A stretch of DNA of 64,000 bases from Runella sp. MFBS21 (GTDB lineage Bacteria; Bacteroidota; Bacteroidia; Cytophagales; Spirosomataceae), in contig NZ_JARNTW010000001.1 in the NCBI RefSeq assembly GCF_029433105.1, positions 434,001-498,000 of the forward strand, in the 5' to 3' direction. Shown one piece after another: positions 25,095-47,316 of the stretch. The notes under the pieces are model-generated. The model ran no database searches, had not been told where the DNA came from, and saw nothing but the letters and a program-made list of their open reading frames with translations. The translations under genes and the position numbers were made by a program. Numbering within the stretch: position 1 is the first letter of the stretch; each line of letters opens with the position of its first letter.

Positions 25095-28000
25095 TTAACG
25101 GTTCTCAAACACTTGAACCTTGTCCTTGTTTTTTGCTAGAATAAGGCGGAGTTTTCCGTGGCTACTTTTTAGCTTACTCATTTGGCGTACTTGACCTTTG
25201 ACCCTAAATCCTGACTGAGCGGGCCCAACAACTTCAAATGTGAGCGAATTATCTTTGTTTTTTTTCCTCCCACGAAGTACTAAGCCTTCATTTCCGTCGT
25301 ATCGACCTAGTTCGGGAAGAACATCAAAAAAATTGCCAGCCAGTAAAATATCAAGCTGCTGGTCGTGGTCATAATCTAAAGTAGTAATCCCGAAAATGGG
25401 CGAAAACTGTGCGGGCATTGGTAATATTTGTATCGCAAAGTTGCCTTTGCCGTTGTTGATAAGTAAGACACTATTAGTCTGATAAACTATTTTTTTCTGA
25501 ACACCTTGCATCTGTTCGCTCGTAAAAACTTCCTCAATGGTTTTGCCCCCATAATCTTGAAAACGGACAAATCTTTTCTTGATATCTGGCAAAACTTTTT
25601 GCAAATCAGACTTTAGCACCATAGGGTACGTTTTGCCGTCAGGATTATAGCAAGTAATGATTTGCTCAATACTTCCATTACGGTCAAAGTCATTGACATA
25701 CAGCTCAGCGGGTTGGTTTTCTGAGGCGTGTAGTTTTGAATTTTTGCCTAGATTGCCCACAATAAAATCAGTGTCTCCATCTTGATCTATGTCGGTGGCA
25801 TGGAGTCTATTCCACCATCCTTCCGACATGGGGAGTGTCTGACGGATGGATTCTGGAAAAGAACCTTTCTGATTTTTTAAAATACTAATAGGCATCCAAT
25901 CTCCTACAATAATTAGTTCAGGAAAATTATCCTTGTCTAAATCTTCAAAATAAGCATCCGTCACCATCCCAAGGTGGCTATCGGGAAGAAGGCTTGAAGT
26001 TACGTCTTTGAAAGAAGGTTCACCACGTAAATTCTTGCCCTCGTTTCGTAGTAAATAGCTACGAGGGTTGAGTCCATATTGGCCAGAAATCATTCGGGTA
26101 CCTACAAACAAATCTATGTCGCCATCATGGTCAAAATCAGCCGCCGCTACACAGGAACCATTTTCAAAAACAGACGGTAAAGCCCCTTGCGCAAGAGTAA
26201 AGTTGCCTTTGCCATCATTGATATATAGTAAATCCGCTAAAGATTCCTGACCAGTAGGAAGTTCATTACCTCCCGTCACTACGTACAAATCGAGGTCTTT
26301 GTCTCCGTCGGCGTCAAAAAATAAAGCGGCAGTTTCGTCAGCTGGAGAGGGCACTGAAAATGTATTGACCGAACCCTTGACAAACTTACCTTGTGAGGTT
26401 TGGATAAACAATCCTCTTGGCTGTCCGGCTCCGCCACCGATGTAAGTATCATCAAGGCCATCGCCATTGACATCTCCTACTGCCAATGCCGGCCCTTGGG
26501 TAGAATACATCTGTTTGAGCAATCCATCGCGATTATAGTCTACAAAGTTGTTTTCTTGGTGCACAAAGTCAAGCCCCGAAGCTGTCGTTATGTCTCGGAA
26601 GGGCGTTGTAATAGATTTAGGATAAGTAGGTTTCCAAATACTTTGGGCGTCGCTATAACTAAGCGTTATGTCAGTGTCGGATTTGATACTTTTTAGAGTT
26701 TGAGTACGGTCATCAGGCCATATTATTTTCAAAGAGTCGATCAGTGGCTGGTTGCCTAATCCAAACACCATCGTGAGGTCACTCGAAGACTGAAACCCAC
26801 GACTGGGCATTTGCTGGAGGTATTGTGTTTTTTCTTTTTGGAAAATGTATACTTTGGCCCCAATACCACTAAGGTTTTTTGGGCTTCCTTTAAGTTTAAC
26901 CCTCAAAAAATGGGGCTTGAGTTTTTCGATGGTATTGTTTTTTAAAATACTTAGTTCACTATTGTTGTTATTGATTACCAAATCCAAATCACCATCATTG
27001 TCTAAATCCCCATAAGCGGCTCCATTAGAAAAACTAGGCTCACTCAAACCCCACAAATCTGTTTTGTTCTCAAATTGAAGATCCCCTTTGTTGCGGAAAG
27101 CAAAATTAGGAATGGGGGTAGTAGAAATCATATCAACAAACTTATGATAGTCAAACTGCATCTTTTGCTCAATCATCGCTTGGATATTTCTTTTATCTGA
27201 CAAAAAGGCTACGTAATCTTGGTCAGTTAAGTTTTTTACAATGCCGTTGGCAATAAACAAATCTTTGAGGCCGTCGTTGTCCATGTCAAAAATAAGAGCT
27301 CCCCAGCTCCAGTCCGTGGCGTGTACACCCGCCAATTGCCCCACTTCTGTAAAAGACGGCGCGGAGATAGAAGGAGAAAACGGTACATCGACACCTTGGT
27401 TGAGATGAAGCATATTGCGCATATATTGATGCCAGTAGCCTTGTTTTTCTTTGAATTGGGTGAGTTCATAGCCCTCAAAAACAGAGGTCGTTTTGAGCCG
27501 CTTGTCATCACTTGGCAGCATATCGGTGACGAAAATATCAAGCAACCCATCATTGTTAATATCCGCAATATCAGCTCCCATCGAAGATAGGCTAATATGT
27601 GGCATACTTTCTTCAAGGGTTTCTTTGAAGGTGCCATCGCGTTGATTGATATAAAGATAATCGCGCTCATAAAAATCATTAGAAACATAAATATCAGGCC
27701 AATTATCTTCGTTGACATCGCCGACAGTAATCCCTAATCCAAATGCAATCAAACTTCCATAGATCCCGGCTTCAGCCGATACATCAGTAAAGATGGGTGA
27801 AGCCTTATTGGAGCTTGGTTTGCTCATTGAGTCAGCTTTGCCGTTATTATTTTTGACTTGAATGGTTTCGTTCCTAAAGAGCTTATGTCCACCCATAGGG
27901 TCGCGGTCTTGTCGGAAATTTTGATATTGTAATTTGTCTACAGGAATGAAGCTATTGTTGAGGAGATACATATCTAAATCTCCGTCTCTGTCATAGTCAA

Positions 28001-28580
28001 AAAAAGCGGCATGGGTCGAAAACCCACCGTCTGCTAAGCCGTATTCAGTGGCTTTGTCTATAAATTTAGGAATTCCATGGGCATCTAATCCTTGATTGAT
28101 AAACAGCTCATTGCCTCGATTATCGTCTTTGACATTTCCGGCGTTGCAGACATAAATATCCATAAGCCCATCGCCATTTACATCGGCAAAAGTGGCGCCT
28201 GTGGACCATGCTTTGGTTCCACCTACCCCTGCTATAGACGAAACGTCTTCAAATTGCCAGCGTTCAGATGCATTTTTGCCTTTGTTAAGGTAGAGGTGAT
28301 TTTGTTCGAAATTGGATGTCACGTATATATCCGCCCATCCGTCGTTGTTGACGTCGCAGATAGCTACCCCCCCCCCATTATAGAAATTTCGGTAATTAAA
28401 AATATTTAATTCCTTTTTATCCAGTAACTGATTTACAAAAGTCACTCCTGTTTGGGAAGAGGGTAATGATTCAAAGAGAGTGTCTTCAGGTAAATGTTTA
28501 CAACTAAGGAGCAACATTACGAAGGCAATAATCAAATAATATTTATGAGAGGCGGAGTGTAGCATTCGATGACACGACAT
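25095..28580 (-). CDS. Large VCBS/FG-GAP and ASPIC-UnbV repeat lipoprotein (paralogue 1)
   Basis: A 1161-residue protein with lipobox MLLLSC (C27). It contains many calcium-loop FG-GAP repeats such as GDVNEDNWPDIYVS, ADINNDGLLDIFVTD and GDLDNDGDLDLVIN. An ASPIC/UnbV module at about 555-630 (LSGIGAKVYIF, MPSRGFQSS, IDSLKIIWPD) joins two predicted beta-propeller halves, and the second half opens with ASGLDFVHQENNF. It belongs to the CRTAC1-like group. It is an exposed lipoprotein near a SusC/SusD pair and divergent from it. It could bind glycan or protein at the surface, but no activity is known. Codons 69-72 are a run of ten G, a possible slippage site. Alternative start: M6. Confidence 0.85.
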   Translation of the reverse strand: MSCHRMLHSASHKYYLIIAFVMLLLSCKHLPEDTLFESLPSSQTGVTFVNQLLDKKELNIFNYRNFYNGGGVAICDVNNDGWADIYVTSNFEQNHLYLNKGKNASERWQFEDVSSIAGVGGTKAWSTGATFADVNGDGLMDIYVCNAGNVKDDNRGNELFINQGLDAHGIPKFIDKATEYGLADGGFSTHAAFFDYDRDGDLDMYLLNNSFIPVDKLQYQNFRQDRDPMGGHKLFRNETIQVKNNNGKADSMSKPSSNKASPIFTDVSAEAGIYGSLIAFGLGITVGDVNEDNWPDIYVSNDFYERDYLYINQRDGTFKETLEESMPHISLSSMGADIADINNDGLLDIFVTDMLPSDDKRLKTTSVFEGYELTQFKEKQGYWHQYMRNMLHLNQGVDVPFSPSISAPSFTEVGQLAGVHATDWSWGALIFDMDNDGLKDLFIANGIVKNLTDQDYVAFLSDKRNIQAMIEQKMQFDYHKFVDMISTTPIPNFAFRNKGDLQFENKTDLWGLSEPSFSNGAAYGDLDNDGDLDLVINNNNSELSILKNNTIEKLKPHFLRVKLKGSPKNLSGIGAKVYIFQKEKTQYLQQMPSRGFQSSSDLTMVFGLGNQPLIDSLKIIWPDDRTQTLKSIKSDTDITLSYSDAQSIWKPTYPKSITTPFRDITTASGLDFVHQENNFVDYNRDGLLKQMYSTQGPALAVGDVNGDGLDDTYIGGGAGQPRGLFIQTSQGKFVKGSVNTFSVPSPADETAALFFDADGDKDLDLYVVTGGNELPTGQESLADLLYINDGKGNFTLAQGALPSVFENGSCVAAADFDHDGDIDLFVGTRMISGQYGLNPRSYLLRNEGKNLRGEPSFKDVTSSLLPDSHLGMVTDAYFEDLDKDNFPELIIVGDWMPISILKNQKGSFPESIRQTLPMSEGWWNRLHATDIDQDGDTDFIVGNLGKNSKLHASENQPAELYVNDFDRNGSIEQIITCYNPDGKTYPMVLKSDLQKVLPDIKKRFVRFQDYGGKTIEEVFTSEQMQGVQKKIVYQTNSVLLINNGKGNFAIQILPMPAQFSPIFGITTLDYDHDQQLDILLAGNFFDVLPELGRYDGNEGLVLRGRKKNKDNSLTFEVVGPAQSGFRVKGQVRQMSKLKSSHGKLRLILAKNKDKVQVFENR
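28367..28376 (-). repeat. 10-base poly-G tract inside the coding sequence
   Basis: Ten C on the plus strand encode Gly69-Gly71 and the first base of Val72 in the large lipoprotein. The same NFYNGGGV or NGSGV motif in the two paralogues (about 34393 and 44122) uses mixed glycine or serine codons without a homopolymer. A one-base slip here would truncate the protein soon after the signal peptide. Confidence 0.8.
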
Positions 28581-28664
28581 TGGACAACAATTTATTTCAT
28601 TATCAGAATCTTAAATGTCTTTTAACGACAACGTTTATAGACTCCGTTGGTATTCTTAATCTTC

Positions 28665-28672
28665 CAAAAATA
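28665..28672 (-). promoter_or_regulatory. Possible -7 element TATTTTTG for VCBS paralogue 1
   Basis: It matches TAnnTTTG on the minus strand, 84 bp before the start at 28580. No TTTG lies at the usual -33 distance (the nearest is 11 bp away), so support is weak. Confidence 0.3.
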
Positions 28673-28836
28673 GCTCTATTAGACAAAGTAGAAGCTTCTT
28701 TTGAGGTTTGAAACAAAGATACTCTTAAAATAATTAAACCGTAAATACTAGAAAATGCTTTGGGTTATTATAAACAGATAATCTGACGATTCTAAGATTA
28801 ATTGGCAATATTTCTGAATAAACTCTTTGAAAATTA

Positions 28837-28973: not shown

Positions 28974-31900
28974 ATGATGAACAACGCTTACCAGCTAAGT
29001 CGTCCTAAAAAAATGGGACGACAAATAGCAGCTATTCTTTCTGCTGCTTTGATGGTTGTGGGATTGCACTTCGGTGTTCAAGCTCAAGAAAAAATGATTA
29101 CGGGTACTGTTAAAGGTGCGGATGGCACAGGCCTTCCGGGGGTAACTGTGCAAGTAAAAGGGACAAACAAAGGAACACAAACTGAGGTCACTGGTGAATA
29201 CAAAATCAGTGCAGCACCAAATTCTACTTTAGTCTTTTCCTTTGTAGGTATGAATACTGAAGAGATTCAGATTGGTGACAAGACCGTCGTCAATGTAACG
29301 ATGAGCGATGATACCAAAGCGCTTCAAGAAGTAGTGGTAGTGGGATATGGTACCGTAAAGAAAAAAGATGCAACGGGAGCCGTAAATGCTATTGGTACTA
29401 AAGACTTCCAAAAGGGAGTGGTAGTATCGCCAGAGCAATTGATGCAAGGACGTGTAGCAGGGGTTCAAATCACTCAGTCGAGTGGTGAGCCAGGTGGTGG
29501 TATCAACGTACGTATTCGTGGTACATCTTCTGTATTTGGTGGCAACAACCCCTTGTTTGTAATTGACGGAGTGCCTTTGGCTGGTGACAATACCTCATCA
29601 GATGCAAGTGCTTCAGGAGTAGGCCGTCAGGCTGCTAAAAACCCCTTAAACTTCTTAAACCCTGATGAAATTGCAAGCATCGACATCCTTAAGGATGCAT
29701 CTGCAACAGCTATCTATGGTTCTCGCGGTGCCAATGGAGTAGTCTTGATTACGACTAAAAAAGGTAAAGGTAAAGGAACATTGGAGTATGGGTATTCGCT
29801 GGGAATGAGCAATATCACTAAGAGATACGATTTGCTTTCAGCGGCTGAATTCCGTGCCGCAGGGGGGCAAGATCAAGGTGGTAGTACCGACTGGCAAAAC
29901 GAATTGTTCAGAACAGGTTATACCAATCAGCACAACTTAGCTTATGGAGGAGGAGATGCGAGTGGAAATTACCGCTTTACGCTTGGTTTTTTAAACCAAC
30001 AAGGTATCATCAAAGAGTCTGATATTAAGCGTTATAGTATTGGATTTAATGGTTCTAAGAAATTTATTCAAGATCGATTGACCATTTCAAGCAATATCAA
30101 TATTGCTAACAACCAAGATGCTAACGTGCCTGTATCAGAAAATATCGGTTTTACAGGAGATTTGCTGGGCAATATTTTGAAAGCGAACCCAACGCGTTCT
30201 ATTTACAATACCGATGGTACATTTACTCAACCAGGTGTAACTGAACCCAACCCATTGGCATTCATTGTTTTATCGCAAGATAACACCAATTCACTTCGTG
30301 CTTTAGGTAATATCAACGCTGAATTACAAATTTATAAAGACTTGAAATTTAAAACTGTGGTTGGTTTTGACAAGTCTTTCTCTTCACGCAAAGCGGCTTA
30401 TTCGAGAGATTTGGTAATTGAAGGTAACGGTGGTATTGGTAGAGCATATGTGGGAGATATTGAAACTGACAACAAATTGTGGGAAAACTACTTTACATAT
30501 GATAAAGAAATAAATGGTATTTCCATAAATGGATTGTTAGGGTATTCTTATCAAAGCTTTAGCCGTTCAACTAAAAATATCTCAGCGGCTAATTTCCGTA
30601 CTTCAGATTTGAATTTGATGCTCAATAACCTTGCTTCTGCAAATGCTGGTAAGTTTGGTAGCAATGTGATCAATAACTCAAGCTCAGAAACTGATGAACT
30701 CCAGTCTTATTTTGGACGTGTAAACGTAGGTATTAAAGATAAGTATTTGTTGACTGCTACATTGCGTGCTGATGGCTCAACCAAATTTGGGGGCAACAAC
30801 AAATATGGGTACTTCCCGTCGTTTGCAGCTAAGTGGAAAATCATGAACGAAAGCTTTGCACCAAAAACTCTTTTTGATGATTTGGCACTTCGTGTAGGTT
30901 ATGGTTTGACTGGTAACCAATCAATCCCTCACAATTTGTATGACCGTCGTGACCGCTATAGTGGCTGGGGAATCAACCAAGGTGCTGATAACATCGAAGG
31001 GGGTGGTTTGAATGCCGTAGCTTTCAACAACCCTAACTTGAAATGGGAAACCACTTCTTCTATCAATATCGGTTTGGATTTTGCTATCTTGAAAAACCGT
31101 ATCTCTGGTACTATCGACTTTTATCAGAAAAACACAAGAGATTTATTGTTTTACGTAGTTTCGGCACAGCCTGCACCTACTCCATTTACATGGAAAAACT
31201 TGGATACCGATATTGAGAACCGTGGAGTAGAAATTTCCTTGACTGGAGCGGTAGTTGATCAAAAAGATTTTGGTTGGGAAGTATTATTAAATGCAGGTTT
31301 CAACAAAAACTTAGTTAAAAACCTTAATGGGGTATTTGATACTGGTGAAATCAACGGACAAGGTCTTACAGGAGCTTTTGCACAACGTATCGCAGCTGGT
31401 CAACCTTTGTTTGCTTATTTCTTGCGTGAGTTTGGTGGGTACGACGAAAATGGTAACTCTCTCTATCCTAATGGTGACTTCCAACAATTCTTGAATGGCA
31501 AAAGCCCACTACCTACTGCTACTGGTGGTTTGACCAACAATTTCCGTTATAAGAATTTTGATTTGAGCTTGTTTTTCAATGGTGTATTTGGTAATTATCT
31601 TTACTCTAATACCGAAAACGCCTTCTTTACCAAAGGTTCTTTCGCCAATGGTCGTAACGTAACCAAAGATGTAGTATCAAGCAAAGAAGGTCCACTCAAT
31701 GCTCCTGATGTTTCGACTCGTTTCTTACAAAAAGGCGATTTTGTTCGTTTGCAAAACTTGAATTTGAGCTATCGTTTCCCACTTCAAAGCAAAACGATTT
31801 CAAATCTTCGCGTATTCTTGACAGGCCAAAACCTAATGACTTTCACTAAGTATACAGGTCAAGACCCTGAAGTAAGTACCAACAAGTCTATCAATGGTAT

Positions 31901-31976
31901 TCCTTCGTTTGGTATTGACTATACGGCGTATCCAAGAGCAAGAACTTGGACGATTGGTGCTAATATTTCTTTCTAA
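28974..31976 (+). CDS. SusC/RagA-family TonB-linked outer membrane transporter
   Basis: A 1000-residue protein. It has a signal peptide ending about VQAQ38 and a carboxypeptidase-regulatory-like beta-sandwich (about 42-112, ITGTVKGADGTGLPGVTVQVKGT). A TonB box follows (ALQEVVVVGYGT, 117-127), then a plug domain (RIRGTSSVFGGNNPLFVIDGVPL, split as RIRGTSSVFGG and NPLFVIDGVP; IDILKDASATAIYGSRGANG). The C-terminal barrel ends in YPRARTWTIGANISF. It pairs with the SusD gene 26 bp downstream to import oligosaccharides or peptides with energy from TonB. It has its own promoter. The substrate is unknown. The nearest glycosidase downstream is GH31, and the N-glycan operon lies about 6 kb away on the other strand. 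Confidence 0.95.
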   Translation: MMNNAYQLSRPKKMGRQIAAILSAALMVVGLHFGVQAQEKMITGTVKGADGTGLPGVTVQVKGTNKGTQTEVTGEYKISAAPNSTLVFSFVGMNTEEIQIGDKTVVNVTMSDDTKALQEVVVVGYGTVKKKDATGAVNAIGTKDFQKGVVVSPEQLMQGRVAGVQITQSSGEPGGGINVRIRGTSSVFGGNNPLFVIDGVPLAGDNTSSDASASGVGRQAAKNPLNFLNPDEIASIDILKDASATAIYGSRGANGVVLITTKKGKGKGTLEYGYSLGMSNITKRYDLLSAAEFRAAGGQDQGGSTDWQNELFRTGYTNQHNLAYGGGDASGNYRFTLGFLNQQGIIKESDIKRYSIGFNGSKKFIQDRLTISSNINIANNQDANVPVSENIGFTGDLLGNILKANPTRSIYNTDGTFTQPGVTEPNPLAFIVLSQDNTNSLRALGNINAELQIYKDLKFKTVVGFDKSFSSRKAAYSRDLVIEGNGGIGRAYVGDIETDNKLWENYFTYDKEINGISINGLLGYSYQSFSRSTKNISAANFRTSDLNLMLNNLASANAGKFGSNVINNSSSETDELQSYFGRVNVGIKDKYLLTATLRADGSTKFGGNNKYGYFPSFAAKWKIMNESFAPKTLFDDLALRVGYGLTGNQSIPHNLYDRRDRYSGWGINQGADNIEGGGLNAVAFNNPNLKWETTSSINIGLDFAILKNRISGTIDFYQKNTRDLLFYVVSAQPAPTPFTWKNLDTDIENRGVEISLTGAVVDQKDFGWEVLLNAGFNKNLVKNLNGVFDTGEINGQGLTGAFAQRIAAGQPLFAYFLREFGGYDENGNSLYPNGDFQQFLNGKSPLPTATGGLTNNFRYKNFDLSLFFNGVFGNYLYSNTENAFFTKGSFANGRNVTKDVVSSKEGPLNAPDVSTRFLQKGDFVRLQNLNLSYRFPLQSKTISNLRVFLTGQNLMTFTKYTGQDPEVSTNKSINGIPSFGIDYTAYPRARTWTIGANISF

Positions 31977-32002: not shown

Positions 32003-33496
32003 ATGAAATCTAATCAATATATAGTAGGAATTTTGATAGCAGGATTTAGCCTGGCTACCATAACTTCTTGTACCGACTTAGTAAATACCGAAAAAGATTC
32101 GATTGTTCGTCCTAATACCGACGGAAAACCCGTAGCAGGAGATGCTACAGCCTTGTTGGAGTCTGCCTATAAAGATTTGGGAGCTTATACCGACCAAGCT
32201 AACATGTATGCCTTGGGCATGCACACTTCTGCCGAAATGATTCCTCCTACTCGGGGTGTGGACTGGGGTGACAATGGAGTATGGCGTACGCTAGACCAAC
32301 ATACATGGGACGCTACTCACCAACAAGTACGTGATGCATGGAATAACCTAAACTCTCGCGTTTTTAAAACTACCGAGATTTTGGCTGGAAATGCTACTCC
32401 CGCCCAAAAAGCAGAAGCTCAATTCTTACGTGCATTTAATATGTACAATGTTATGGACTTGTATGGACAAGTTCCACTTAGAGAGTTTAGTCAAGGGGTG
32501 GATGAGCTGCCACGCGTCATGACTCGCTCTGAGGCTTTTGATTTTATCGTAAAAGATTTAGAAGAAGCTCTTCCTAATTTAGCTAAAGTTGGGCCTTCTC
32601 CTAACAATGGTGTCGCTAATAAAGCTGCCGCTAATTTCTTGTTGGCCAAATTGTATTTGAACAAAGCCGTTTATAAATCAGCTAAACCAGAAGGACCTTA
32701 TACTTTTGAAAAAGCTGATATGGATAAGGTAATCACCTATGTAAATGCCATTACTGCTGACGGTTATAAATTTGATACCGACTATTTTAATGCATTTTCG
32801 GCTACAGCCAATGGTGAAACTATCTTGGTGTCGTTGGAAGGAACAGCACAAAACCGCTGGTTTATGACGCTTCACTACAATCAAAACCCTTCAGGTTGGA
32901 ATGGTTTTACTACCCTAGCTGACTTCTACGACAAATTCGAGAAAGATGATCCACGGATTGGTAAACCCGCAAAAGGCGACGGTACTGAGTTTTCAGGAAT
33001 TGGTCTTGGATTCTTAATCGGAAAGCAAATCGATGATAAAGGCAAAGACCTTATCGATACTCGTACCCAAAAAGTATTGTCGTTTACACGCGATGTGCCC
33101 TTGGCTGGTGCTGCTACCGACAAAGGTATCCGGGTTATCAAATACCACCCTGCCAATGCTAGCAAGTACATCTTGATGCGCTATGCTGAGGCAATTATGA
33201 TGAAAGCAGAAGCCGAACTTAGAGGTGGTAATACTGCGGCGGCGCTCGCTACTGTGAATGCTTTGAGAACAGCTCGTAAAGCTAAAACTATCGCATCTTT
33301 AACTACCGATGGATTGTTTGACGAAATCGGTCGCGAGCTTTATTGGGAAGGTGGTAAACGTACAGTAGAAATTCGCTTTGGTAAATTTACTACTGGTGCA
33401 GGAGCTGACAACAAAGAAGCTTATACGGTATTGTTCCCGATCCCTTCTATTGCCCTTGTTTCGAATCCAAATTTGAAACAAAACCCAGGGTATTAA
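32003..33496 (+). CDS. SusD/RagB-family surface lipoprotein
   Basis: A 497-residue lipoprotein (lipobox TITSC, C23) that forms the ligand-binding lid of the SusC channel. It has the helical TPR-rich core with AQFLRAFNMYNVMDLYGQVPL and LLAKLYLNKAVY, and the C-terminal SusD block ILMRYAEAIMMKAEAELRGG followed by RELYWEGGKRTVEIRFGKF. Length is typical. It is followed by a strong bidirectional terminator, so susC and susD form a two-gene transcript separate from the genes after it. Confidence 0.95.
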   Translation: MKSNQYIVGILIAGFSLATITSCTDLVNTEKDSIVRPNTDGKPVAGDATALLESAYKDLGAYTDQANMYALGMHTSAEMIPPTRGVDWGDNGVWRTLDQHTWDATHQQVRDAWNNLNSRVFKTTEILAGNATPAQKAEAQFLRAFNMYNVMDLYGQVPLREFSQGVDELPRVMTRSEAFDFIVKDLEEALPNLAKVGPSPNNGVANKAAANFLLAKLYLNKAVYKSAKPEGPYTFEKADMDKVITYVNAITADGYKFDTDYFNAFSATANGETILVSLEGTAQNRWFMTLHYNQNPSGWNGFTTLADFYDKFEKDDPRIGKPAKGDGTEFSGIGLGFLIGKQIDDKGKDLIDTRTQKVLSFTRDVPLAGAATDKGIRVIKYHPANASKYILMRYAEAIMMKAEAELRGGNTAAALATVNALRTARKAKTIASLTTDGLFDEIGRELYWEGGKRTVEIRFGKFTTGAGADNKEAYTVLFPIPSIALVSNPNLKQNPGY

Positions 33497-33518: not shown

Positions 33519-33556
33519 AAAACAAAAATGCTCGAACCTTCGAGCATTTTTGTTTT
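33519..33556. terminator. Strong symmetric terminator after SusD
   Basis: The arms of 18 bp (33519-33536 and 33539-33556) are perfectly complementary around CC. The core is TGCTCGAA/TTCGAGCA, with flanking A and T runs that make it usable in both directions. A reading frame entering it from the gene downstream (start 33528) is not real coding. Confidence 0.9.
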
Positions 33557-33590
33557 AAGACGCTACACCTTATTCCACAGTATTAGACCT

Positions 33591-37529: not shown

Positions 37530-40276
37530 GGTATCACTACAGGGGCATAGGGTTGATGATTCTGCTTGGGTTGTTGACGCATAGTCTATTTTCTCAAAAT
37601 GCAGGTGATTTTGTGAGTTTTCGGAAGAATGCCACTGATTTGCGCATTAGCGGAACCAAAGGCGACATCTTGATTCAGGGATTTTCGAGTTCAATTTTCA
37701 AAGTCCAGTGGCTTTCTACCAACGAAAATTCGGTAGATACTTCTGCCTCGGTGATTTTAAAACCCGAAAGTTTTACTTATTCTGTTGTCGAAAGTGCTAC
37801 CGCGTTAGAAATAAGCTCAACAGAGTGTAGTATTGAAATTACGAAAAAGCCCCTATCGGTATCTTTAAAGTCTAACGGACGTACTAAAATTCAACAGTAT
37901 AACTTTAGAACCGTACCAGATTCGGTATACTTAGATTTCAAAATCAACCCTGCCGATGTTTTTCATGGTTCGGGGGGGCGTATTTCGGAAGTTGATTTGA
38001 ACCGCAAAGTACTGGAGTTCAAAAATGCGTATCGCCCTAGTTATTTTGAAGATATTTATGGCTATACGACTCAGTTGTCCCAAAGTTTCAATGTGCCGTT
38101 TATTGTATCCTCTCACCAGTATGGATTGCTCCTTGATAGCAATTTGCCCGGCAATATGCGAATGTACATTGGAGCATTGGATTCTACCCAAATCCACGTG
38201 GAAGCACAAAGCCAAGGTAAGTGGGCATATTATTTTATCAATGGTGATTCCAACGATGAAATTCTGGCGCATTATACCTTGCTCACAGGAAGGCAGCCAT
38301 TGGTGCCACGCTGGGCTTTAGGGTATTTGCAATCAAAGTTTGGCTACAAGACGGAGGCCGAAGCCAAAGAAGTAGTCAACAAGTTACAGGCCCAAGGGTT
38401 TCCGATTGATGCCCTGATTTTGGACTTGTATTGGTATGGAGATGGCACTACAATGGGTAATTTTGACTGGAACTCTGCGGCTTTTCCCAATCCTACCCAA
38501 ATGATGAAAGATTGGGCGGCCAAAGGCGTAAAGACTATATTGATAAGTGACCCTTATATCACCACCAAATCCAAAAACTTTCGATTGGCGGATTCGCTGA
38601 GTTATCTCACAAAAAATACCAACAATCAGACCGCAACCGTAGACATGTGGAATGGCACGGTCGGGCTATTGGATGTGTTTAAATCTCAAACTCAACAATG
38701 GCTGTGGACACAGTATAAGCGACTTACTAACCAAGGTGTTTCGGGCTGGTGGTGTGATAAAATCGAACCTGAGGAGCATCCTTCCAATTTTGTGCATGTC
38801 AACGGAAGTGCACCTCAGGTGCATAATCTATATGCGCTTACATGGGCGCAAAACCTGTATGAAAATTATCGGCGTGATTTCCCTGAGCAGAGAGTGTTTA
38901 ATTTGATTAGGTCTGGTTGGGCGGGGTCGCAGCGATATGGAGCTTTGCCGTGGAGTGGAGATGTGATGAGATATTGGGCGGGATTGAAGCTGCAAATCCC
39001 GATGATGATTCATTCAGGATTTTCGGGATTGGCCTACATGCACTCCGACATCGGCGGTTTTGAGACTGGCCCCGACAAAAGAGAAAAAGATGAAGAAATG
39101 GATATGCGTTGGTTTCAGTTTGGGACCTTCTCGCCTATCATGCGAGCGCATGGGCTGAGGTCAAGTACGGAGCCATATAATCTTTCTCAACCTTTTTATG
39201 ATATTGTCAGACGGCATATCAAGCTCCGATATGAGTTGTTGCCTTATACCTATAGTTTGGCTTACCAAAACAGTACCACAGGGCGGCCACTATGCCTGTC
39301 GATGGATTATTTTGAATTGACAAACACCAACAAAAATATCACAGATCAGTATTTTTTTGGAGAAAATTTGCTCGTTGCACCTATTTTGCTGCACGGGATG
39401 TTGGTGCGAAAAGTAGTATTGCCCAAAGGAAAATGGTTTAATTTTTGGACCAATCAACTGCACAATGGCGACGCTAATCTTTTTGAAAAAGTGACCAACG
39501 AAAATATCCCTGTTTATGCCAAGGCAGGAAGCTTTATTCCGTTGGCATCTTCGGCTAAGTCTTCTACTGACTCTTATATTTCGGATAGCCTTACAGTCAA
39601 ATTTTTTCAGGATGTATCGGTAAGAAACTCTTCCTTTACAATGTTTCATGACGACGGGAAAAATCCTAATTCGTTGAAAGATAATCAAATAGAGCTTATT
39701 GACTTTGTGGGAAAAACCGTGACCGATACCGTACAAGTACAAATCAGGCGTCGCCAAAAATTTGATAAAAGCTTGACTATAAGAGCGATAACGTTGGAGC
39801 TTGAAAACATTACTTCTTTTCCCAAAGCCGTAATACTCAATGGGCAAACGATTCCGGTTGTTTTTCAAGCAAATTTATTCACTAAAAACAATCAAGCCTT
39901 TTACAACACCACTTCAGCGCAATTGTTGGTTCGTTTTGGATGGCAGTGCGATTCTCCCGCTCAAATCACGGTCATTCGAGATGGCTTGTCGGTTTTGACA
40001 TCCGTGGAGCCTACCGAAGACTGGAAGATATACCCCAACCCGATCAGACAAGGCCAAAAAGTAACTTTAGATTTTGTAGTAAATACGTCTGCTGAATATG
40101 AGCTTGAGCTAGTCAATACCGCTGGAATGGTAGTGAATAGACTTCGACTAGGGCCACTTCAGAAAGACACTCACGTGGTATATCCTTTAGATGTACCCAC
40201 GCTGAAAGGCACAGTAGTACTAAGATTGAAAAACAACTTAGGACAAGCAACAAGTAAAAAATTAGTGATAGAATAA
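37526..40276 (+). CDS. GH31 glycosidase exported by type IX secretion
   Basis: A 916-residue protein with an N-terminal signal (LLTHSLFSQ|NA), an N-terminal beta domain, the GH31 barrel and a C-terminal sorting domain. WWCDKIEPE carries the likely nucleophile D411, and RSGWAGSQRYGALPWSGD the likely acid/base D479. HSDIGGF and FGTFSPIMRAHG are conserved GH31 blocks. Residues about 835-916, starting DWKIYPNPIRQGQ, are a T9SS type A sorting domain, so it is secreted or cell-attached. Specificity (alpha-glucosidase, alpha-xylosidase or another) is open. WWCDKIEPE is closer to the WWxDxxEPD form than to the DMNE form. It is coupled to VCBS paralogue 2 upstream and lies 9 bp before DUF4249. Confidence 0.92.
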   Translation: MRYHYRGIGLMILLGLLTHSLFSQNAGDFVSFRKNATDLRISGTKGDILIQGFSSSIFKVQWLSTNENSVDTSASVILKPESFTYSVVESATALEISSTECSIEITKKPLSVSLKSNGRTKIQQYNFRTVPDSVYLDFKINPADVFHGSGGRISEVDLNRKVLEFKNAYRPSYFEDIYGYTTQLSQSFNVPFIVSSHQYGLLLDSNLPGNMRMYIGALDSTQIHVEAQSQGKWAYYFINGDSNDEILAHYTLLTGRQPLVPRWALGYLQSKFGYKTEAEAKEVVNKLQAQGFPIDALILDLYWYGDGTTMGNFDWNSAAFPNPTQMMKDWAAKGVKTILISDPYITTKSKNFRLADSLSYLTKNTNNQTATVDMWNGTVGLLDVFKSQTQQWLWTQYKRLTNQGVSGWWCDKIEPEEHPSNFVHVNGSAPQVHNLYALTWAQNLYENYRRDFPEQRVFNLIRSGWAGSQRYGALPWSGDVMRYWAGLKLQIPMMIHSGFSGLAYMHSDIGGFETGPDKREKDEEMDMRWFQFGTFSPIMRAHGLRSSTEPYNLSQPFYDIVRRHIKLRYELLPYTYSLAYQNSTTGRPLCLSMDYFELTNTNKNITDQYFFGENLLVAPILLHGMLVRKVVLPKGKWFNFWTNQLHNGDANLFEKVTNENIPVYAKAGSFIPLASSAKSSTDSYISDSLTVKFFQDVSVRNSSFTMFHDDGKNPNSLKDNQIELIDFVGKTVTDTVQVQIRRRQKFDKSLTIRAITLELENITSFPKAVILNGQTIPVVFQANLFTKNNQAFYNTTSAQLLVRFGWQCDSPAQITVIRDGLSVLTSVEPTEDWKIYPNPIRQGQKVTLDFVVNTSAEYELELVNTAGMVVNRLRLGPLQKDTHVVYPLDVPTLKGTVVLRLKNNLGQATSKKLVIE

Positions 40277-40285
40277 AAACTGCCT

Positions 40286-41488
40286 ATGAAATCTCTGATA
40301 AAGCTTTTGATGTGGAGTGGATTGCTAGGCGCTATTGCTTGGGGATGTGTAGATAATTTTCAGGTCAACATCACCACTTCCAAAGGGTACTTGTTGGTAG
40401 AAGGCACGCTTACCGATTTGAACGAACCCCAGTATATAAGTATATTCAGAACTCCCGAAGATACCCAGTTTAAAAGCTCAGATTTTACTTCTTCTATCAA
40501 TCTTGACCGTCAAAAAGCGGTGCCTATTACACAAGCCCAAGTAAAGCTAATTGTAAACAATAAAGATGAGATAGTGATGCAAGAAACCCTAGCGGGCTAT
40601 TATTACCTACCGTCTTCTTTTAAGGCACAAGTAGGAAATACGTATCAGCTTTGGTTTAAGACTACGGACGGGATTACGTACGAGTCGTCAGTTGAATCCA
40701 TGAATCCAGTGGCAGGTATCAAAGACATGCGAGAGGAGTTTAATTCGGTAGGTATCAAAAGGTCGCTAACGAGTAGCGAAAGAATCGCAACAAATGATAT
40801 TTATATAGACTTCGATGATACGCCTAACTCCAAAAATTTTTATCGGTGGAGATGGGTGAATTGGGAAATACAGCGCGTATGTGAGACTTGTCGTCAGGGG
40901 CGGTATTATATTTATGAAGATGAATCAGGCGAAACAGGAGGCTGCTATCGAGACCTTACACTTCAATCAAACGATCTATTCGATTATTACTGTGGTAACC
41001 GTTGTTGGGATATTTTTTATAGCCCTGATATCAACATTTTGGCGGATGTATACACCGACGGTCAACCTCAAAAAAATCGTCTAGTAGCGCAGATACCTCT
41101 TCGACAGTCAAACCCTACTTTGGTGAGTGTGCAGCAGATGTCATTGTCGCCCAATGCTTTCAGATACCTTAAACTCTTACAAGACCAATCTATCAATACA
41201 GGTACTTTGGCCGATACACCTCCTGCGCCTATCAGGGGAAATATTAAAAATAGTAAGAATGAAGAAGAGTTGATTTTGGGATATTTTTCGGCATCGTCGG
41301 TATCCGAACAAAGATTGATGATGAATCGGCGTAATACCACGGGAGGCACGCTTAATGGTTTGTTTGCATTTTTCAACAATCGCCTCCCTCTGTTGGAAGA
41401 TGCCTCCAACGAACGTCCTGACATTCCGTTGGGTATTTGTAAAAATAGCCTTACCCGAACCTCTATTCCCCCTTTTGGTTGGCGATGA
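40286..41488 (+). CDS. DUF4249 lipoprotein
   Basis: A 400-residue lipoprotein (lipobox IAWGC, C21). The sequence KGYLLVEGTLTDLNEPQYISIFRT is the standard DUF4249 opening, a beta-sandwich family that is nearly always encoded beside a TonB-dependent receptor. Six cysteines cluster in the central part (VCETCRQGRYY, GGCYRD, YCGNRCWD), suggesting disulfides. It starts 9 bp after GH31, and its stop overlaps the receptor start by 4 bp. By genomic association it is an accessory protein of that receptor. The ligand is unknown. Confidence 0.88.
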   Translation: MKSLIKLLMWSGLLGAIAWGCVDNFQVNITTSKGYLLVEGTLTDLNEPQYISIFRTPEDTQFKSSDFTSSINLDRQKAVPITQAQVKLIVNNKDEIVMQETLAGYYYLPSSFKAQVGNTYQLWFKTTDGITYESSVESMNPVAGIKDMREEFNSVGIKRSLTSSERIATNDIYIDFDDTPNSKNFYRWRWVNWEIQRVCETCRQGRYYIYEDESGETGGCYRDLTLQSNDLFDYYCGNRCWDIFYSPDINILADVYTDGQPQKNRLVAQIPLRQSNPTLVSVQQMSLSPNAFRYLKLLQDQSINTGTLADTPPAPIRGNIKNSKNEEELILGYFSASSVSEQRLMMNRRNTTGGTLNGLFAFFNNRLPLLEDASNERPDIPLGICKNSLTRTSIPPFGWR

Positions 41489-43878
41489 AAACAAGATTTT
41501 TACTTTTGATGATAATGCTTCTAGGAAGTTTAGAAATCATAGCTCAGAGCTATCTTATTAGTGGGATTGTGCGTGATTCCCTGACCAATGCTCCCCTAGA
41601 AGGTGCCACGATTGTGATGGATAGAAACAAAAAACTATACGCTACCCGCAGCGATGCAGAAGGTAAGTTTTCGATCAATGCAGGAAGTGGCAATCACGTT
41701 CTTTCGATTCGATATGTAGGATATGTACCTTTTTCCAAATACATCCCTTCTTTAAAAGGAAACTTGAAGATAGAAATAGTACTTTCTAAAGTAGAGCATC
41801 AGTTAGAACAAGTAGTGATTACTACCAAGGGATTTGACCAAACCGTGCGACAGCCAATTTTGGGCGTAAATCAGCTCAATATGAAAACGTTCCAAAAATT
41901 GCCGGCGGCTTTTGGGGAAGTCGATTTGTTGAGGGGCATTCAGATGCTTCCGGGCGTGACAAGCGTGGGCGAAGCTTCCAATGGAGTCAATATCAGAGGC
42001 GGAACTACCGACCAAAATCTCATCTTGCTCGACGATACGCCTATTTTTAATCCTACGCATATGTTTGGGTTGTTTTCGGTATTTCCTCCCGATGCCGTAG
42101 CAGGGCTGGATTTATACAAAGGAAATGTACCTGGAAGGTATGGAGGCAGAGCTGCTTCGGTGATGGATATAGCTTTAAAAAACCCCAATCTCGAAACATG
42201 GAAGGGCAAAGGAGGTATCAGTGTTGTATCCAATCGCTTTATGTTGGATGCGCCCATTGTCAAAGGAAAACTAGGTGTATATGCGGCTGGAAGAGGGGCA
42301 TTCAATGATTTTTTGCTTCCTATCGCATCCGAACGTCTCAAAGGTATCAAAGCCAAATTTGGAGAGGGTGTTTTGAAAGCGTTTTGGAAAGTAAATCAGC
42401 GTAATACCATAACCGCAATGGCCTACAAAAGTTACGATTTGTTCAAAACTGATTTACTACCAAGTTTGCCCAATGTAATAGGTGTGACGACATTTTATGA
42501 ACACCAAACCACCAACGCGATGGCGCGGTGGCTACACGTGATTTCGCCCAAACTTGACATTCAGACCACGGCTGTATACGCGCATTATACGCCCACTATT
42601 TCTACCCTCGAAAAAGATACCGACAATCCCGTTCGTTTGGAATCGTCTATTGTGCAAAAACAACTAAAATCTAATTTGAATTGGCAGTCTGACAACCATA
42701 AAATAGAGTCAGGAATTGTTTTTACAAATTATACCATAGCTCCCGGTACCCTTCAACCCAATCAGAGCGAAAGCGTAAAGTACGTGACCACCCCTACCGA
42801 ATACGCCAACGAATGGGCTTGGTACGCAGACGAAGAATTTAGCTATTCCAAAAAATGGGCTTTTTCGTTGGGATTGCGTTATTCGCTGTTTATGGCTTTG
42901 GGACCCAACGATTATCGGAATTATGAAGCAGGAGAGCCCCGTGACGACTTTTCGGTCGTTGATACAGTGGCGGTGGCTAAAGGAAAAGCCCTCAAAACCT
43001 ATGGTGGGCTAGAGCCACGGCTAGGTATACGATACACTATCACCGACAAAATCTCTTTGAAATTTGGGTATAATTTGATGCGACAATATGTACAGATTAT
43101 TTCCAATACTACCACGCCTATTCCAACATCTCGCTGGAAAACAAGCGACCGAAACATCAAGCCACAAATAAGCAATTTGGCGTCGGCGGGGTATTATCAA
43201 TCTTTCAATAAAGACATTTATGAAGTCTCGTTGGAGGGGTATTATAGATATACCCAAAACATGGTCGATTATAAACCAGGCGCTGATTTTTTACTTCAAA
43301 AGTACCCCGAAACCCAAATTGTACAAGGCGTAAGTAAGGCGTATGGGGTAGAACTGATGCTGACCAAAAAGAAAGGCAAACTAACGGGTTGGGCCAATTA
43401 TACGTATTCTCGTACCTTCAATCGTACTTATGATGGCATCGCGCCTATCGAACGTGTCAACAATGGGAATTGGTATGCTGCCAATTACGACCGGCCTCAT
43501 ACGTTCAACACTTCCATTGATATTTTTGTGGACGACCACAATTCTTTCAGTTTTACTTTTATGTACAGCAAAGGCCGACCTTATACGGAGCCCGTGGGTT
43601 TTGTAAATTATCTCAACAATTACTTCCCCTTTTATGAAGCTCGCAACAACCGACGCGTTCCAGATTATCATCGGCTAGATTTTGCGTGGAATATTTACAA
43701 TCCACGCATGAAAGATAGACGTTTTAAGGGACACTGGGCATTTACGGCCTACAACTTGTATGCTCGTAAAAATGTCTATTCGGTCTTTTTTAAGACCGAA
43801 AATGGCACGAGTGTAGCCCAAAAACTCCAAATATTTGCCGCACCGATTGTAAGCCTAGCTTATAATTTTGAGTTTTAA
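41485..43878 (+). CDS. TonB-dependent outer membrane receptor (DUF4249 partner)
   Basis: A 797-residue receptor starting at ATG 41485, coupled to DUF4249 by an ATGA overlap. A TTG six bases earlier is in frame but unnecessary. It has a signal peptide (LEIIAQ|SY), a carboxypeptidase-regulatory-like domain (about 24-107), a plug (FGEVDLLRGIQMLPGVTSVG, then GVNIRGGTTDQNLILLDD) and a barrel ending SLAYNFEF. It is shorter than SusC and lacks a SusD partner, so it belongs to the receptor type that pairs with DUF4249. The substrate is unknown. The gene is framed by the GH31 enzyme and VCBS paralogue 3. Confidence 0.92.
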   Translation: MKTRFLLLMIMLLGSLEIIAQSYLISGIVRDSLTNAPLEGATIVMDRNKKLYATRSDAEGKFSINAGSGNHVLSIRYVGYVPFSKYIPSLKGNLKIEIVLSKVEHQLEQVVITTKGFDQTVRQPILGVNQLNMKTFQKLPAAFGEVDLLRGIQMLPGVTSVGEASNGVNIRGGTTDQNLILLDDTPIFNPTHMFGLFSVFPPDAVAGLDLYKGNVPGRYGGRAASVMDIALKNPNLETWKGKGGISVVSNRFMLDAPIVKGKLGVYAAGRGAFNDFLLPIASERLKGIKAKFGEGVLKAFWKVNQRNTITAMAYKSYDLFKTDLLPSLPNVIGVTTFYEHQTTNAMARWLHVISPKLDIQTTAVYAHYTPTISTLEKDTDNPVRLESSIVQKQLKSNLNWQSDNHKIESGIVFTNYTIAPGTLQPNQSESVKYVTTPTEYANEWAWYADEEFSYSKKWAFSLGLRYSLFMALGPNDYRNYEAGEPRDDFSVVDTVAVAKGKALKTYGGLEPRLGIRYTITDKISLKFGYNLMRQYVQIISNTTTPIPTSRWKTSDRNIKPQISNLASAGYYQSFNKDIYEVSLEGYYRYTQNMVDYKPGADFLLQKYPETQIVQGVSKAYGVELMLTKKKGKLTGWANYTYSRTFNRTYDGIAPIERVNNGNWYAANYDRPHTFNTSIDIFVDDHNSFSFTFMYSKGRPYTEPVGFVNYLNNYFPFYEARNNRRVPDYHRLDFAWNIYNPRMKDRRFKGHWAFTAYNLYARKNVYSVFFKTENGTSVAQKLQIFAAPIVSLAYNFEF

Positions 43879-43898
43879 AATCAAACAAATTAGAATCT

Positions 43899-43917
43899 TC
43901 AAACTTGCCTAGTTTGA
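43899..43917 (+). other. Small stem-loop between receptor and VCBS paralogue 3
   Basis: TCAAACT (43899-43905) and AGTTTGA (43911-43917) pair around a 5-nt loop in the 69-bp spacer. The following GTTTCGG lacks a long U run, so termination would be inefficient. Confidence 0.35.
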
Positions 43918-43947
43918 GTTTCGGAAGTTTTATAAATACTGTTTTTA

Positions 43948-46900
43948 ATGAAGTCTATTTATCTTTTTTTACTTTTTGCAGTATTGTTTTCTTGCCAAAA
44001 AGCCGAGAAAACAGTCCCTGCCTTTCGATTGCTAGAGGCTAGTCAAACGGGTATTGAGTTTTCAAATGATCTGAAGGCGACCAATGAGCTCAATATTTTT
44101 AACTATATGTATTTTTATAATGGAAGTGGCGTAGGCGCTGGCGACTTCAACAACGATGGGCTCATTGACCTTTGTTTTACGGGCAATCTCGCCCAAAATC
44201 GCCTTTATATCAACCGAGGAAAACTTAAGTTTGAGGATGTAACTCCCCAAACCAATATCAATACAGGAAAAGGATGGGCCAATGGAGTCTCGGTAGTGGA
44301 TATCAACCAAGACGGGAAACTGGATTTGTACATCAGTCAAGTAGGCGGTTTTCAGGGTTTTGATGGTAGAAATCTCCTTTTTGTCTGTAAAGAAATCACC
44401 AAGGAAGGCGTCCCTATTTATGAAGAAAAAGCCAAAGAATATGGGCTGGATTTGGTAGGATTTGGTACGCAAGCTGCCTTTTTTGATTATGATTTAGACG
44501 GAGATTTAGACTTTTTTCAACTCAATCATTCCGTTCATCAAAATGGCACTTTTGGATTCCGTTCGGTATTTCAGGGCAAAATGCATCCTACGGCAGGCGA
44601 TAAGTTTTTTAGGAATGATAGCCAATATTCTTCTGAAGGGCAGTTGGTTAAACCTATTTTTAAAGAGGTGACTTTGGAGGCGCGTATTGTAAGCGATGTG
44701 TTAGGATATGGACTGGGTGTAGGCGTAGGCGATGTCAATTTCGACGGCTATCCAGATATGTATATTGGTAATGATTTTCATGAAAATGACTATCTCTATA
44801 TCAATCAGCAAAATGGGCAGTTTAAAGAAGATTTGGAAAACCAAATAATGCACACAAGCCAATTTTCGATGGGAATTGATATTGGAGATATCAACAATGA
44901 CATCCTGCCCGAAATCATTTCTCTGGATATGTTGCCCTCCGATAAAGAAATCTTGAAACGGTCGGAAGGGGAAGACTCTTACAATATTTTCAAATATAAA
45001 ATACGGCAAGGCTACAATCACCAATTTGCCAGAAACAATCTACAGCTCAATTTAGGGCCATTGTCGGCTCAAAAAAACGCCCAAGGGGCTTTTTCAGAAA
45101 TTGGGATGTATGCCGGAGTACACGCCACCGACTGGTCGTGGGCACCTCTTTTTATGGACTTTGACAACGACGGCCGCAAAGATTTGTTTATCTCAAACGG
45201 TATTCCTAAGCGTATGAATGACATTGATTACATACAATTTGTATCAAACGAAAACATTCAAGCCAAAATGAACAAGGGGGAATTTACGGAAGATGACCCT
45301 TCGGTAGTGGAGATTTTGCCCGAAATCAAATTACCTAATAAGTTTTATCTCAATACTCCAACCCTACAATTTCAGGATTGGCAAAATCGAATTGTTAATG
45401 ACAAACCTTCCTTTTCAAATGGGGCTGTGTACGCTGATTTGGACAACGACGGTGACCTAGAAGTCATTACCAACAACATCAACGACAAAGCCTTTATCTA
45501 TGAAAACTTGGCCAATGAATATGCTCCCACTCATCAATCTTTGACGCTACATTTGAAGGGTTCTTCCACTAATCGCAATGCTATTGGAGCTAAGTGTTTG
45601 GTATTTAAGGGTAAGGAAATACTCTCTTACGAAAAATTTCCAGTAAGAGGGTTTCAGGCAAGTATGGAAGTACCTTTGACGGTGGGCCTTGGCAACAAAG
45701 CCGAGGTTGATTCTATTTATGTGATTTGGCCTGACAAACGTTTTCAAAAAATAGACCCTAAAAATTTGCCTAGCTCCATTACTCTCACTTATCAAGTTAC
45801 GCTACCCGTATTTGATTATGCAGCTTTTGTACCAAAGATGATTCGTAGCGTAGCCGTAGAAGATGTGACAGAGGCGGCGGGGTTGGATTTTGTACATCAA
45901 GAAAACAACTTCAATGAATTTGACCGTGAAGCTCTTATACCGCATTTGGCTTCTTCGGAAGGCCCTGCTTTGGCGCTCGGCGATATCAATCATGACGGTC
46001 TTGAAGATGTGTTTTTGGGAAATGCCCGCGACGGGGTTAGCAAGGTATATCTTCAAAATTCCAAGGGTAAATTTGTGTATTTAAAACAACCCGAAATCGC
46101 CAAAGATAGTGCTTACGAAGATGTCGATGCGGTGTTTGCGGATGTCAACGCTGACTCGCATCTCGACTTGATAGTAGCAAGCGGTGGAAATGAATTTTTT
46201 GGTAACTCCGAGTATCTCCAACCGCGCGTTTATCTCAATGACGGCAAAGGGAATTTTGCCCGAAAAAAAGACGCTTTTACCGACTTGTTTGTGACGGCCT
46301 CTACCGTAAGGGCTTTTGATTTCAATGCTGATGGTAAGATAGACTTGTTTATTGGAGGACGATCTATTCCGAAGGCTTATGGTGAGAGTCCTCGTTCGTA
46401 TTTGCTCCAAAATGACGGCTCGGGCAAATTTGTGGACGTGACTGAAAAAATAGCCCCCGACTTGAAAAATATCGGGATGGTAAAAAATGTAGAGTTGGTG
46501 GATATTGACGGTAATAAAGATACGGATTTGGTGCTGTCTATAGAATGGCAGGGGATATGTGTAATGGAAAATAAAAAGGGGGCATTTACCAAAAAAATGC
46601 TTACTGAAGCCAAAGGTTGGTGGAATTTTACACTCACGCACGATTTTGACGGAGATGGGGACTTAGATATACTGGCAGGGAATTTGGGATTAAATAGCCG
46701 TCTCAAAGCCACAGTAGAGGAGCCCGTAAAACTGTATGTGGGAGATATTGATAAGAATGAAAGAGTAGACCAAATTCTGACTTATTTTCTCAACGGAAAA
46801 GAGACCCTTTTTGCCAATAAAATGGAAACCGACAAGCAATTTCCGTTTATCAAAAAACAATACATTCATGCCAAAGATTTTGCGCAAGCAAGTGTAGAAG

Positions 46901-47316
46901 CGCTTTTTGGGAGAGATAAGTTAGAGAAAATGAAAACCCTAACTGCGACAGAGTTTACCAATTGTATTTTGCTGAATGATGGTAAAGGTAACTTTACCCT
47001 AAAACCGCTGCCTATCAAAGCACAGTGGACTACTTTTCGGGCGGGGCAAATCATCGATGTCAATGGTGACAAACTCCCTGATGTGCTCATTGCAGGCAAT
47101 TTTTATGACAACAACATCCAAATGGGACGTTATGATGCAGATTATGGAACCGTACTGGTCAACCAAGGTCAAGGAGAGTTTGAGGTCAGGCCTTTGAGTA
47201 CCTGGGTAAAAGGGCAAGTAAGGCATATCGCTACGGTCAAAAGAGCGGTAGGTCAGCCTCTACTAATACTCGCCAAAAACAACGATAAAGCCCAAGTGAT
47301 TACCTTAAAGAAATGA
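43948..47316 (+). CDS. Large VCBS/FG-GAP and ASPIC-UnbV repeat lipoprotein (paralogue 3)
   Basis: A 1122-residue lipoprotein (lipobox VLFSC, C16) built like paralogues 1 and 2. It opens with FNYMYFYNGSGVGAGDFNNDG and has repeated calcium loops (GDVNFDGYPDMYIGN, ADLDNDGDLEVITN). An ASPIC/UnbV part lies at about 530-605 (NAIGAKCLVFKG, VRGFQASMEV, VDSIYVIWPD), and a second half starts with AAGLDFVHQENNF. The NGSGV variant and several divergent loops show it is the most distant of the three. It ends the gene series begun at 33591. The next gene, a transaldolase, has its own promoter. No enzymatic motif was seen, and a binding or scaffolding role is a guess. Confidence 0.85.
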   Translation: MKSIYLFLLFAVLFSCQKAEKTVPAFRLLEASQTGIEFSNDLKATNELNIFNYMYFYNGSGVGAGDFNNDGLIDLCFTGNLAQNRLYINRGKLKFEDVTPQTNINTGKGWANGVSVVDINQDGKLDLYISQVGGFQGFDGRNLLFVCKEITKEGVPIYEEKAKEYGLDLVGFGTQAAFFDYDLDGDLDFFQLNHSVHQNGTFGFRSVFQGKMHPTAGDKFFRNDSQYSSEGQLVKPIFKEVTLEARIVSDVLGYGLGVGVGDVNFDGYPDMYIGNDFHENDYLYINQQNGQFKEDLENQIMHTSQFSMGIDIGDINNDILPEIISLDMLPSDKEILKRSEGEDSYNIFKYKIRQGYNHQFARNNLQLNLGPLSAQKNAQGAFSEIGMYAGVHATDWSWAPLFMDFDNDGRKDLFISNGIPKRMNDIDYIQFVSNENIQAKMNKGEFTEDDPSVVEILPEIKLPNKFYLNTPTLQFQDWQNRIVNDKPSFSNGAVYADLDNDGDLEVITNNINDKAFIYENLANEYAPTHQSLTLHLKGSSTNRNAIGAKCLVFKGKEILSYEKFPVRGFQASMEVPLTVGLGNKAEVDSIYVIWPDKRFQKIDPKNLPSSITLTYQVTLPVFDYAAFVPKMIRSVAVEDVTEAAGLDFVHQENNFNEFDREALIPHLASSEGPALALGDINHDGLEDVFLGNARDGVSKVYLQNSKGKFVYLKQPEIAKDSAYEDVDAVFADVNADSHLDLIVASGGNEFFGNSEYLQPRVYLNDGKGNFARKKDAFTDLFVTASTVRAFDFNADGKIDLFIGGRSIPKAYGESPRSYLLQNDGSGKFVDVTEKIAPDLKNIGMVKNVELVDIDGNKDTDLVLSIEWQGICVMENKKGAFTKKMLTEAKGWWNFTLTHDFDGDGDLDILAGNLGLNSRLKATVEEPVKLYVGDIDKNERVDQILTYFLNGKETLFANKMETDKQFPFIKKQYIHAKDFAQASVEALFGRDKLEKMKTLTATEFTNCILLNDGKGNFTLKPLPIKAQWTTFRAGQIIDVNGDKLPDVLIAGNFYDNNIQMGRYDADYGTVLVNQGQGEFEVRPLSTWVKGQVRHIATVKRAVGQPLLILAKNNDKAQVITLKK

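Follow-up and report, generated by a model that had tools for sequence, protein, structure and literature searches.

ASPIC/FG-GAP lipoproteins as candidate accessory components of SusCD importers in Runella and other Bacteroidota

Results

Three putative two-propeller lipoproteins

The window, the 64,000-nucleotide stretch of DNA analysed here, encodes three large ASPIC proteins that we consider, with moderate confidence, to be outer-membrane accessory lipoprotein subunits of a subset of SusCD importers. Their genes lie at 25095..28580 on the minus strand (1161 aa; a third lineage, divergent from susC), at 34194..37529 on the plus strand (1111 aa from a TTG start; the alpha paralogue) and at 43948..47316 on the plus strand (1122 aa; the beta paralogue). 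The 34194 protein has 1107 aa in the public prediction P0001, compared with 1111 aa as an open reading frame.

Each of the three open reading frames matches the Pfam family FG-GAP_3 (E 4.4e-66 or better) and carries one UnbV_ASPIC domain (PF07593) in mid-protein, with scores of 72.4, 58.5 and 42.7 bits against a curated cut-off of 23.4. A single pattern located 14 calcium-type motifs in each protein, seven on the N-terminal and seven on the C-terminal side of the ASPIC domain. The order of lipobox cysteine, seven motifs, ASPIC domain and seven motifs is therefore common to all three, and the seven motifs ahead of ASPIC conform in 3/3 proteins to the FG-GAP propeller expected there. The natural reading of this plan suggests two seven-bladed propellers. 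The N termini run to ...LLLSC-K, ...GLQAC-S and ...VLFSC-Q in the 25095, 34194 and 43948 proteins. The first-pass annotation had proposed both the shared two-propeller plus ASPIC plan and a lipobox signal in all three paralogues; the identical Pfam matches and the 7+7 motifs bear out the former, and the N-terminal reading together with the aligned family cysteine confirms the latter.

The best solved match of the family profile is PDB 9etn, cartilage acidic protein 1 (E 9.5e-25). An FG-GAP propeller followed by ASPIC is common to CRTAC1/ASPIC-UnbV proteins (PF07593) and to the window proteins, but the latter add a second set of seven motifs past ASPIC, indicative of another propeller, as well as a lipid anchor and a SusCD gene context. 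They are not of the single-propeller length of about 600 aa seen in 9etn; because of their length of about 1,100 aa and the seven further motifs past ASPIC, we assign them to a two-propeller subfamily. The family comprises at least 8,000 scored relatives, whose annotations include VCBS repeat-containing protein, CRTAC1 family protein, RNA-binding protein and enediyne biosynthesis protein E4.

A lipid-anchor cysteine is common in the family. The aligned column holds Cys in 284/316 members, 13 of the remainder being gaps, and the cysteine is invariant in a 57-member alignment. The aligned cysteine identifies the lipoprotein signal, while counts obtained by motif rules depend on the rule (239/315 or 191/316). 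Among the eight copies of this genome, one (L011) lacks the cysteine.

Neighbouring genes in the window

The 25095 gene is divergent from a gene for a SusC/RagA TonB-linked outer-membrane transporter (28974..31976, plus strand; TIGR04056, 683 bits against a cut-off of 368), which is followed by a SusD-family lipoprotein gene (32003..33496, plus strand; SusD_RagB, SusD-like_3 and others above cut-off). Between this SusD gene and the alpha gene lies a gene for a putative 215-aa lipoprotein without a Pfam match (33528..34175, plus strand), homologues of which hold the same slot in related loci; the cluster was found at 5 loci, in each directly 5' of a family gene. The alpha gene shares a 4-bp overlap with a gene for a GH31 glycosidase with a T9SS sorting tail (37526..40276, plus strand; PF01055, 296 bits; TIGR04183, 26.1 bits with a cut-off of 23). 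A DUF4249 gene (40286..41488, plus strand; PF14054, 120 bits) and an adjoining TonB-dependent receptor gene (41479..43878, plus strand; CarbopepD_reg_2 and Plug) separate GH31 from the beta gene. The divergent placement of 25095 agrees with the first-pass annotation, as does the T9SS-tailed GH31 gene next to 34194, which that annotation described as translationally coupled.

Two other features of the window were recorded. The 25095 gene is separated at its 3' end by 10 bp from a gene for a 222-aa protein (24416-25084) with the 4HB_MCP sensory module as its sole Pfam match. Further upstream, a minus-strand block encodes a PNGase F type N-glycanase and a GH125 alpha-mannosidase (12328-14007 and 21445-23028) along with a GDSL esterase and GH88; this block may be an N-glycan degradation set.

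Association with SusCD within the genome and in a phylum sample

The 7.88-Mb genome has 8 copies of UnbV_ASPIC, all within open frames of 1,112-1,171 aa. Identity to the 34194 protein is 39-45% for the other two window copies and the five further ones. Each of the five copies outside the window (L009-L013) lies in or beside a SusC-SusD pair, placing all 8 at SusCD loci. The copies form 6 loci, and SusD was found within 5 kb at 6/6. By comparison, the regions within 5 kb of one of 79 counted SusD genes (77 SusD-like_3 matches and 2 from our own scan) make up 9.7% of the genome, a figure that SusD types missed by the one Pfam model would raise. If the loci are independent, the chance of finding 6/6 near SusD is p about 1e-6.

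The first-pass annotation had read repeated placement beside outer-membrane uptake genes as a sign of a shared surface role, such as glycan capture, adhesion or shielding, to be checked by a neighbourhood survey, and a lack of enrichment in other genomes would have spoken against it. Such enrichment was seen in a sample of the phylum: SusC or SusD was present in the stretch at 68/99 loci of this phylum sample, and at 32/40 loci compared with 2/40 matched controls. In a second set, chosen by similarity as the best 80 of at least 595 confirmed stretches and hence biased to this subfamily, the count was 73/80. SusC and SusD were called with iterated profiles built from proteins of this genome, by which distant SusD may be missed. 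Controls, taken from the same contig 150-160 kb away, are available for 40 of the 59 loci for which they had been intended. The phylum sample consists of 99 stretches from 44 genomes, with about 5 candidates scored per genome, and a family match at E 0.001 occurs in 98/148 genomes, many of these matches being weak. It omits rows from the Runella genome itself and fragments (four G113 pieces, G127:C16 and G030:C1:3364143); a few other short pieces fall inside included stretches, and three stretch pairs overlap. A family reading frame of at least 900 aa is present in 98/99, 79/80 and 39/40 of the phylum-sample, similarity-chosen and matched stretches, and the counts keep all stretches.

The arrangement of the genes is also recurrent. 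Leaving tandem sisters aside, 111/165 copies in the similarity-chosen set (5 more at contig ends) and 65/136 copies in the phylum sample (2 more at contig ends) are immediately preceded by a same-strand SusD gene. Location directly after susD is thus the majority situation in the former and that of about half of the copies in the latter; in the window, the 215-aa gene intervenes. With A denoting a family gene, the common order is SusC-SusD-A-A or SusC-SusD-A-A-A, which recurs in many bacterial families, and a single family gene after SusD is also frequent in the phylum sample. The A-A gap has a median of -4 bp and is at most 100 bp in 105/110 cases, and the SusD-A gap is wider (median 102 bp; at most 100 bp in 48/98); because genes were taken as longest reading frames, starts are possibly too early and these gaps too small.

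Tree distances of SusC and A correlate at 0.46 over 120 loci, compared with a maximum of 0.22 in 300 permutations, though this correlation is confounded by organism descent. The nearest neighbours agree for 51/120 loci between the A and SusC trees and for 80/120 between SusC and SusD, and the tie of A to SusC is accordingly looser than that of SusD. Moreover, neither SusC nor SusD is present in the stretch at 31/99 phylum-sample loci, and SusC over the curated cut-off is absent from 4/12 genomes checked (G023, G101, G105 and G128). The function of the family therefore cannot wholly depend on SusCD. Among the matches listed from the open-access literature, we found no paper linking the ASPIC/FG-GAP/VCBS family to SusCD.

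Another protein of about 300 aa is repeatedly encoded close to family genes (L081:17910-18824, L021:8695-9615 and others); parts of it are GyrI-like or, with matches below cut-off, resemble polyketide cyclases. With its two clusters merged, it was present in 53/80 similarity-chosen and 8/99 phylum-sample stretches and in 0/40 controls.

An ordered pair of old paralogues

In a tree of 316 family members, most first-position copies separate from last-position copies. Tandem position requires 9 changes on this tree, compared with a mean of 45.9 and a minimum of 35 in 500 within-pair label swaps of the 68 tandem pairs, and the nearest tip from another locus has the same tandem position in 124/136 cases. 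The tandem copies are old, position-specific alpha and beta paralogues whose order has been kept.

The 34194 copy and the copies in the alpha slot of L014-L017 and L090 together make up a clade of six tips (support 1.0), and the next nearest tip is a first-of-two copy (L086). The 43948 copy falls in a 30-tip clade (support 0.971) in which 23 tips are second-of-two, with L014, L015, L016 and L090 as its nearest relatives. Alpha and beta are adjacent in the Dyadobacter loci L016 and L090. The GH31-DUF4249-TonB-receptor module lies between them in the window, in L014 (a Cytophagaceae MAG) and in L015 (Emticicia), and in L090 the same kinds of gene are found just downstream on the opposite strand. 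Most of the tandem-bearing loci examined have alpha and beta side by side, so that insertion of the module into an alpha-beta tandem would be the simpler history. The first-pass annotation had described 43948 as following a TonB receptor; its position is correctly given, but the arrangement is better read as a module lodged inside an old tandem. A separate recruitment of 43948 to a second transporter is disfavoured by the tree and the related loci, which make it the beta partner of 34194. Two apparent parallels were discarded: at L035, DUF4249 lies between a receptor and an MG2-like protein (a match below cut-off) and GH31 is missing, and the gene at L077 taken by size for GH31 is a GH32 with a T9SS tail.

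The nearest tip to the 25095 copy is L091 (0.94), and the copy is not placed beside alpha or beta copies. In four near relatives (L014, L015, L016 and L090) another gene of about 990 aa occupies the divergent slot, and L017 is rearranged. The tie of 25095 to its susC is the weakest of the three because near relatives have a different gene there.

Membrane face of the family

The published surface-export signal of Bacteroidota lipoproteins, as described in PMC5080379, is an acidic-rich stretch after the lipid cysteine. At the same set of loci, at least two acidic residues at positions +2 to +6 were found in 74/111 SusD proteins, as against 58/260 ASPIC-family members and 58/309 other lipoproteins, and the net charge past the cysteine was positive in 108/260, 7/111 and 87/309 of the family, SusD and other lipoproteins, respectively. 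The K-(D/E)2 signal of C. canimorsus was not enriched in the family either (20/260 versus 17/309 in other lipoproteins). The surface role claimed in the first-pass annotation is hence not supported by the sequences, because the SusD-type acidic signal is missing and the family resembles other lipoproteins. The missing signal is weak evidence, since it has been worked out in few species, and would favour a periplasmic face or another export route.

SusE/SusF and SGBPs are accessory lipoproteins of polysaccharide loci, encoded just after susD, and many ASPIC-family genes occupy the same place. It is conceivable, if rather doubtful, that the family members are surface glycan-binding proteins of this kind, with propellers holding polysaccharide for SusCD and the exported GH31. 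Besides the gene position after susD, the T9SS-tailed GH31 or GH32 beside some family copies and the sugar-related genes (GH65, GH37, GH13, LacI and SSF) near some loci would fit such a role, although GH13 and GH65 also occur in controls (3/40 and 1/40). The FG-GAP repeats are of the integrin kind, and FG-GAP is named among adhesion repeats in PMC2668756. Unlike SusE/SusF and SGBPs, however, the family does not have the export signal of the neighbouring SusD and often occurs as two or three ordered tandem paralogues. It is also present in genomes without SusC over cut-off. In the three window proteins, FG-GAP and ASPIC are the only Pfam matches over cut-off, with no CBM or SGBP domain.

Alternatively, the proteins might be periplasm-facing outer-membrane lipoproteins that receive SusC cargo or brace the SusC/TonB side, an explanation to which we give limited credence. 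The acidic signal would then be absent because the proteins were never flipped out, and the acidic content after the cysteine does equal that of other lipoproteins and differ from that of SusD. The small number of species behind the signal again makes its absence a poor guide, and we know of no periplasmic precedent of comparable size beside SusC.

A vanadium haloperoxidase as second partner

Besides SusC, SusD and the family itself, the commonest neighbour is a cluster of PAP2/vanadium-haloperoxidase proteins of about 447 aa, with 73/185 sequences, 59 of them at +1. The gene is present in 31/99 phylum-sample and 41/80 similarity-chosen stretches, and at 10/40 matched loci compared with 0/40 controls. 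In 66/179 loci it is the first or second gene downstream of the family, 10 of these 66 having no SusCD in the stretch, and where it follows a family gene the median gap is 3.5 bp. Two of these neighbours match PDB 4cit with 467 and 455 bits. Three active-site patterns, set from one 4cit alignment, are kept in 67/71 haloperoxidases of at least 380 aa, and the residues that we take to be vanadate ligands line up in that one alignment. A loose rule finds a lipobox-like cysteine in 58/73 complete haloperoxidases (L011:11617-12942 and 72 other loci).

These observations raise the question of whether the family mainly serves the haloperoxidase in envelope oxidant or halogen chemistry, with SusCD as a frequent companion. 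The downstream position, the control comparison and the conserved active-site patterns would all suit this idea. We nevertheless regard it as improbable: neither the window nor the surroundings of 7/8 genome copies contain the haloperoxidase gene, 85/179 loci have SusCD without a haloperoxidase next to the family gene, and 28/179 have neither. The likeness to a Zobellia-type iodoperoxidase (4cit/4usz) is a property of the partner gene, not of the family.

PDB 4usz is the Zobellia iodoperoxidase, and Arenibacter C-21 requires glucose, oxygen and calcium to take up iodine (PMC5064120). The Arenibacter loci L046 and L051 contain SusC, SusD, two family genes and haloperoxidase, LacI, GH65, HAD-family and symporter genes; a connection between these gene sets and the iodine uptake of C-21 is possible and is offered as a lead only. 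An excerpt of PMC9296495 shows no link of haloperoxidase to SusC.

GMC oxidoreductase and gluconate 2-dehydrogenase subunit 3 genes occur near the cassettes at L047, L059, L063, L093, L122 and L170, with the haloperoxidase at all of these except L170; they are a possible peroxide source. In one bacterial family, f23 (L106, L139, L144, L187 and L190), whose genomes encode few SusC above cut-off or none, the ASPIC gene adjoins that of the haloperoxidase. At L187, a gene for an LptG-like permease lies directly upstream.

Although SusCD loci are abundant in the genome (77 SusD-like_3 matches), clustering of these large paralogues by chance or hitch-hiking is rejected as very improbable by the 2/40 matched controls, by SusD at 6/6 loci against 9.7% of the genome and by an order that recurs across families.

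Discussion

We favour the interpretation that the three window proteins are accessory lipoprotein subunits of some SusCD importers. Each would comprise an N-terminal FG-GAP propeller with ASPIC, corresponding to the CRTAC1-like half, followed by a second propeller, and would be lipid-anchored at the outer membrane. Alpha and beta may cooperate at the SusCD complex in binding its cargo; in the window, this would perhaps be an alpha-linked sugar that the exported GH31 sets free. They might pass this cargo to or from the transporter, by analogy with BtuG and BtuB. BtuG of Bacteroides is a seven-bladed propeller lipoprotein that forms a surface lid on the TonB transporter BtuB, according to PMC10404256. 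The likeness is one of description, in that the genes of a propeller lipoprotein and of a TonB-dependent transporter occur together; in the ASPIC family, seven motifs per half only suggest seven blades. Unlike the BtuG system, the ASPIC family has SusD present and two motif sets.

More tentatively, a large class of SusCD importers across Bacteroidota could have the old, ordered alpha-beta pair as its third component, facing the periplasm or exported by another route and in many lineages coupled to a vanadium haloperoxidase at the envelope. If this is true, the pair would represent a new importer architecture and not another glycan-binding protein. Specific, testable predictions follow from the pairing of alpha with beta and from the link to the haloperoxidase. 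The recurrent SusCD neighbourhood suggests an overlooked accessory part of the importer, and this gene context gives a large protein family a testable role at SusCD importers, which are among the main nutrient gates of Bacteroidota.
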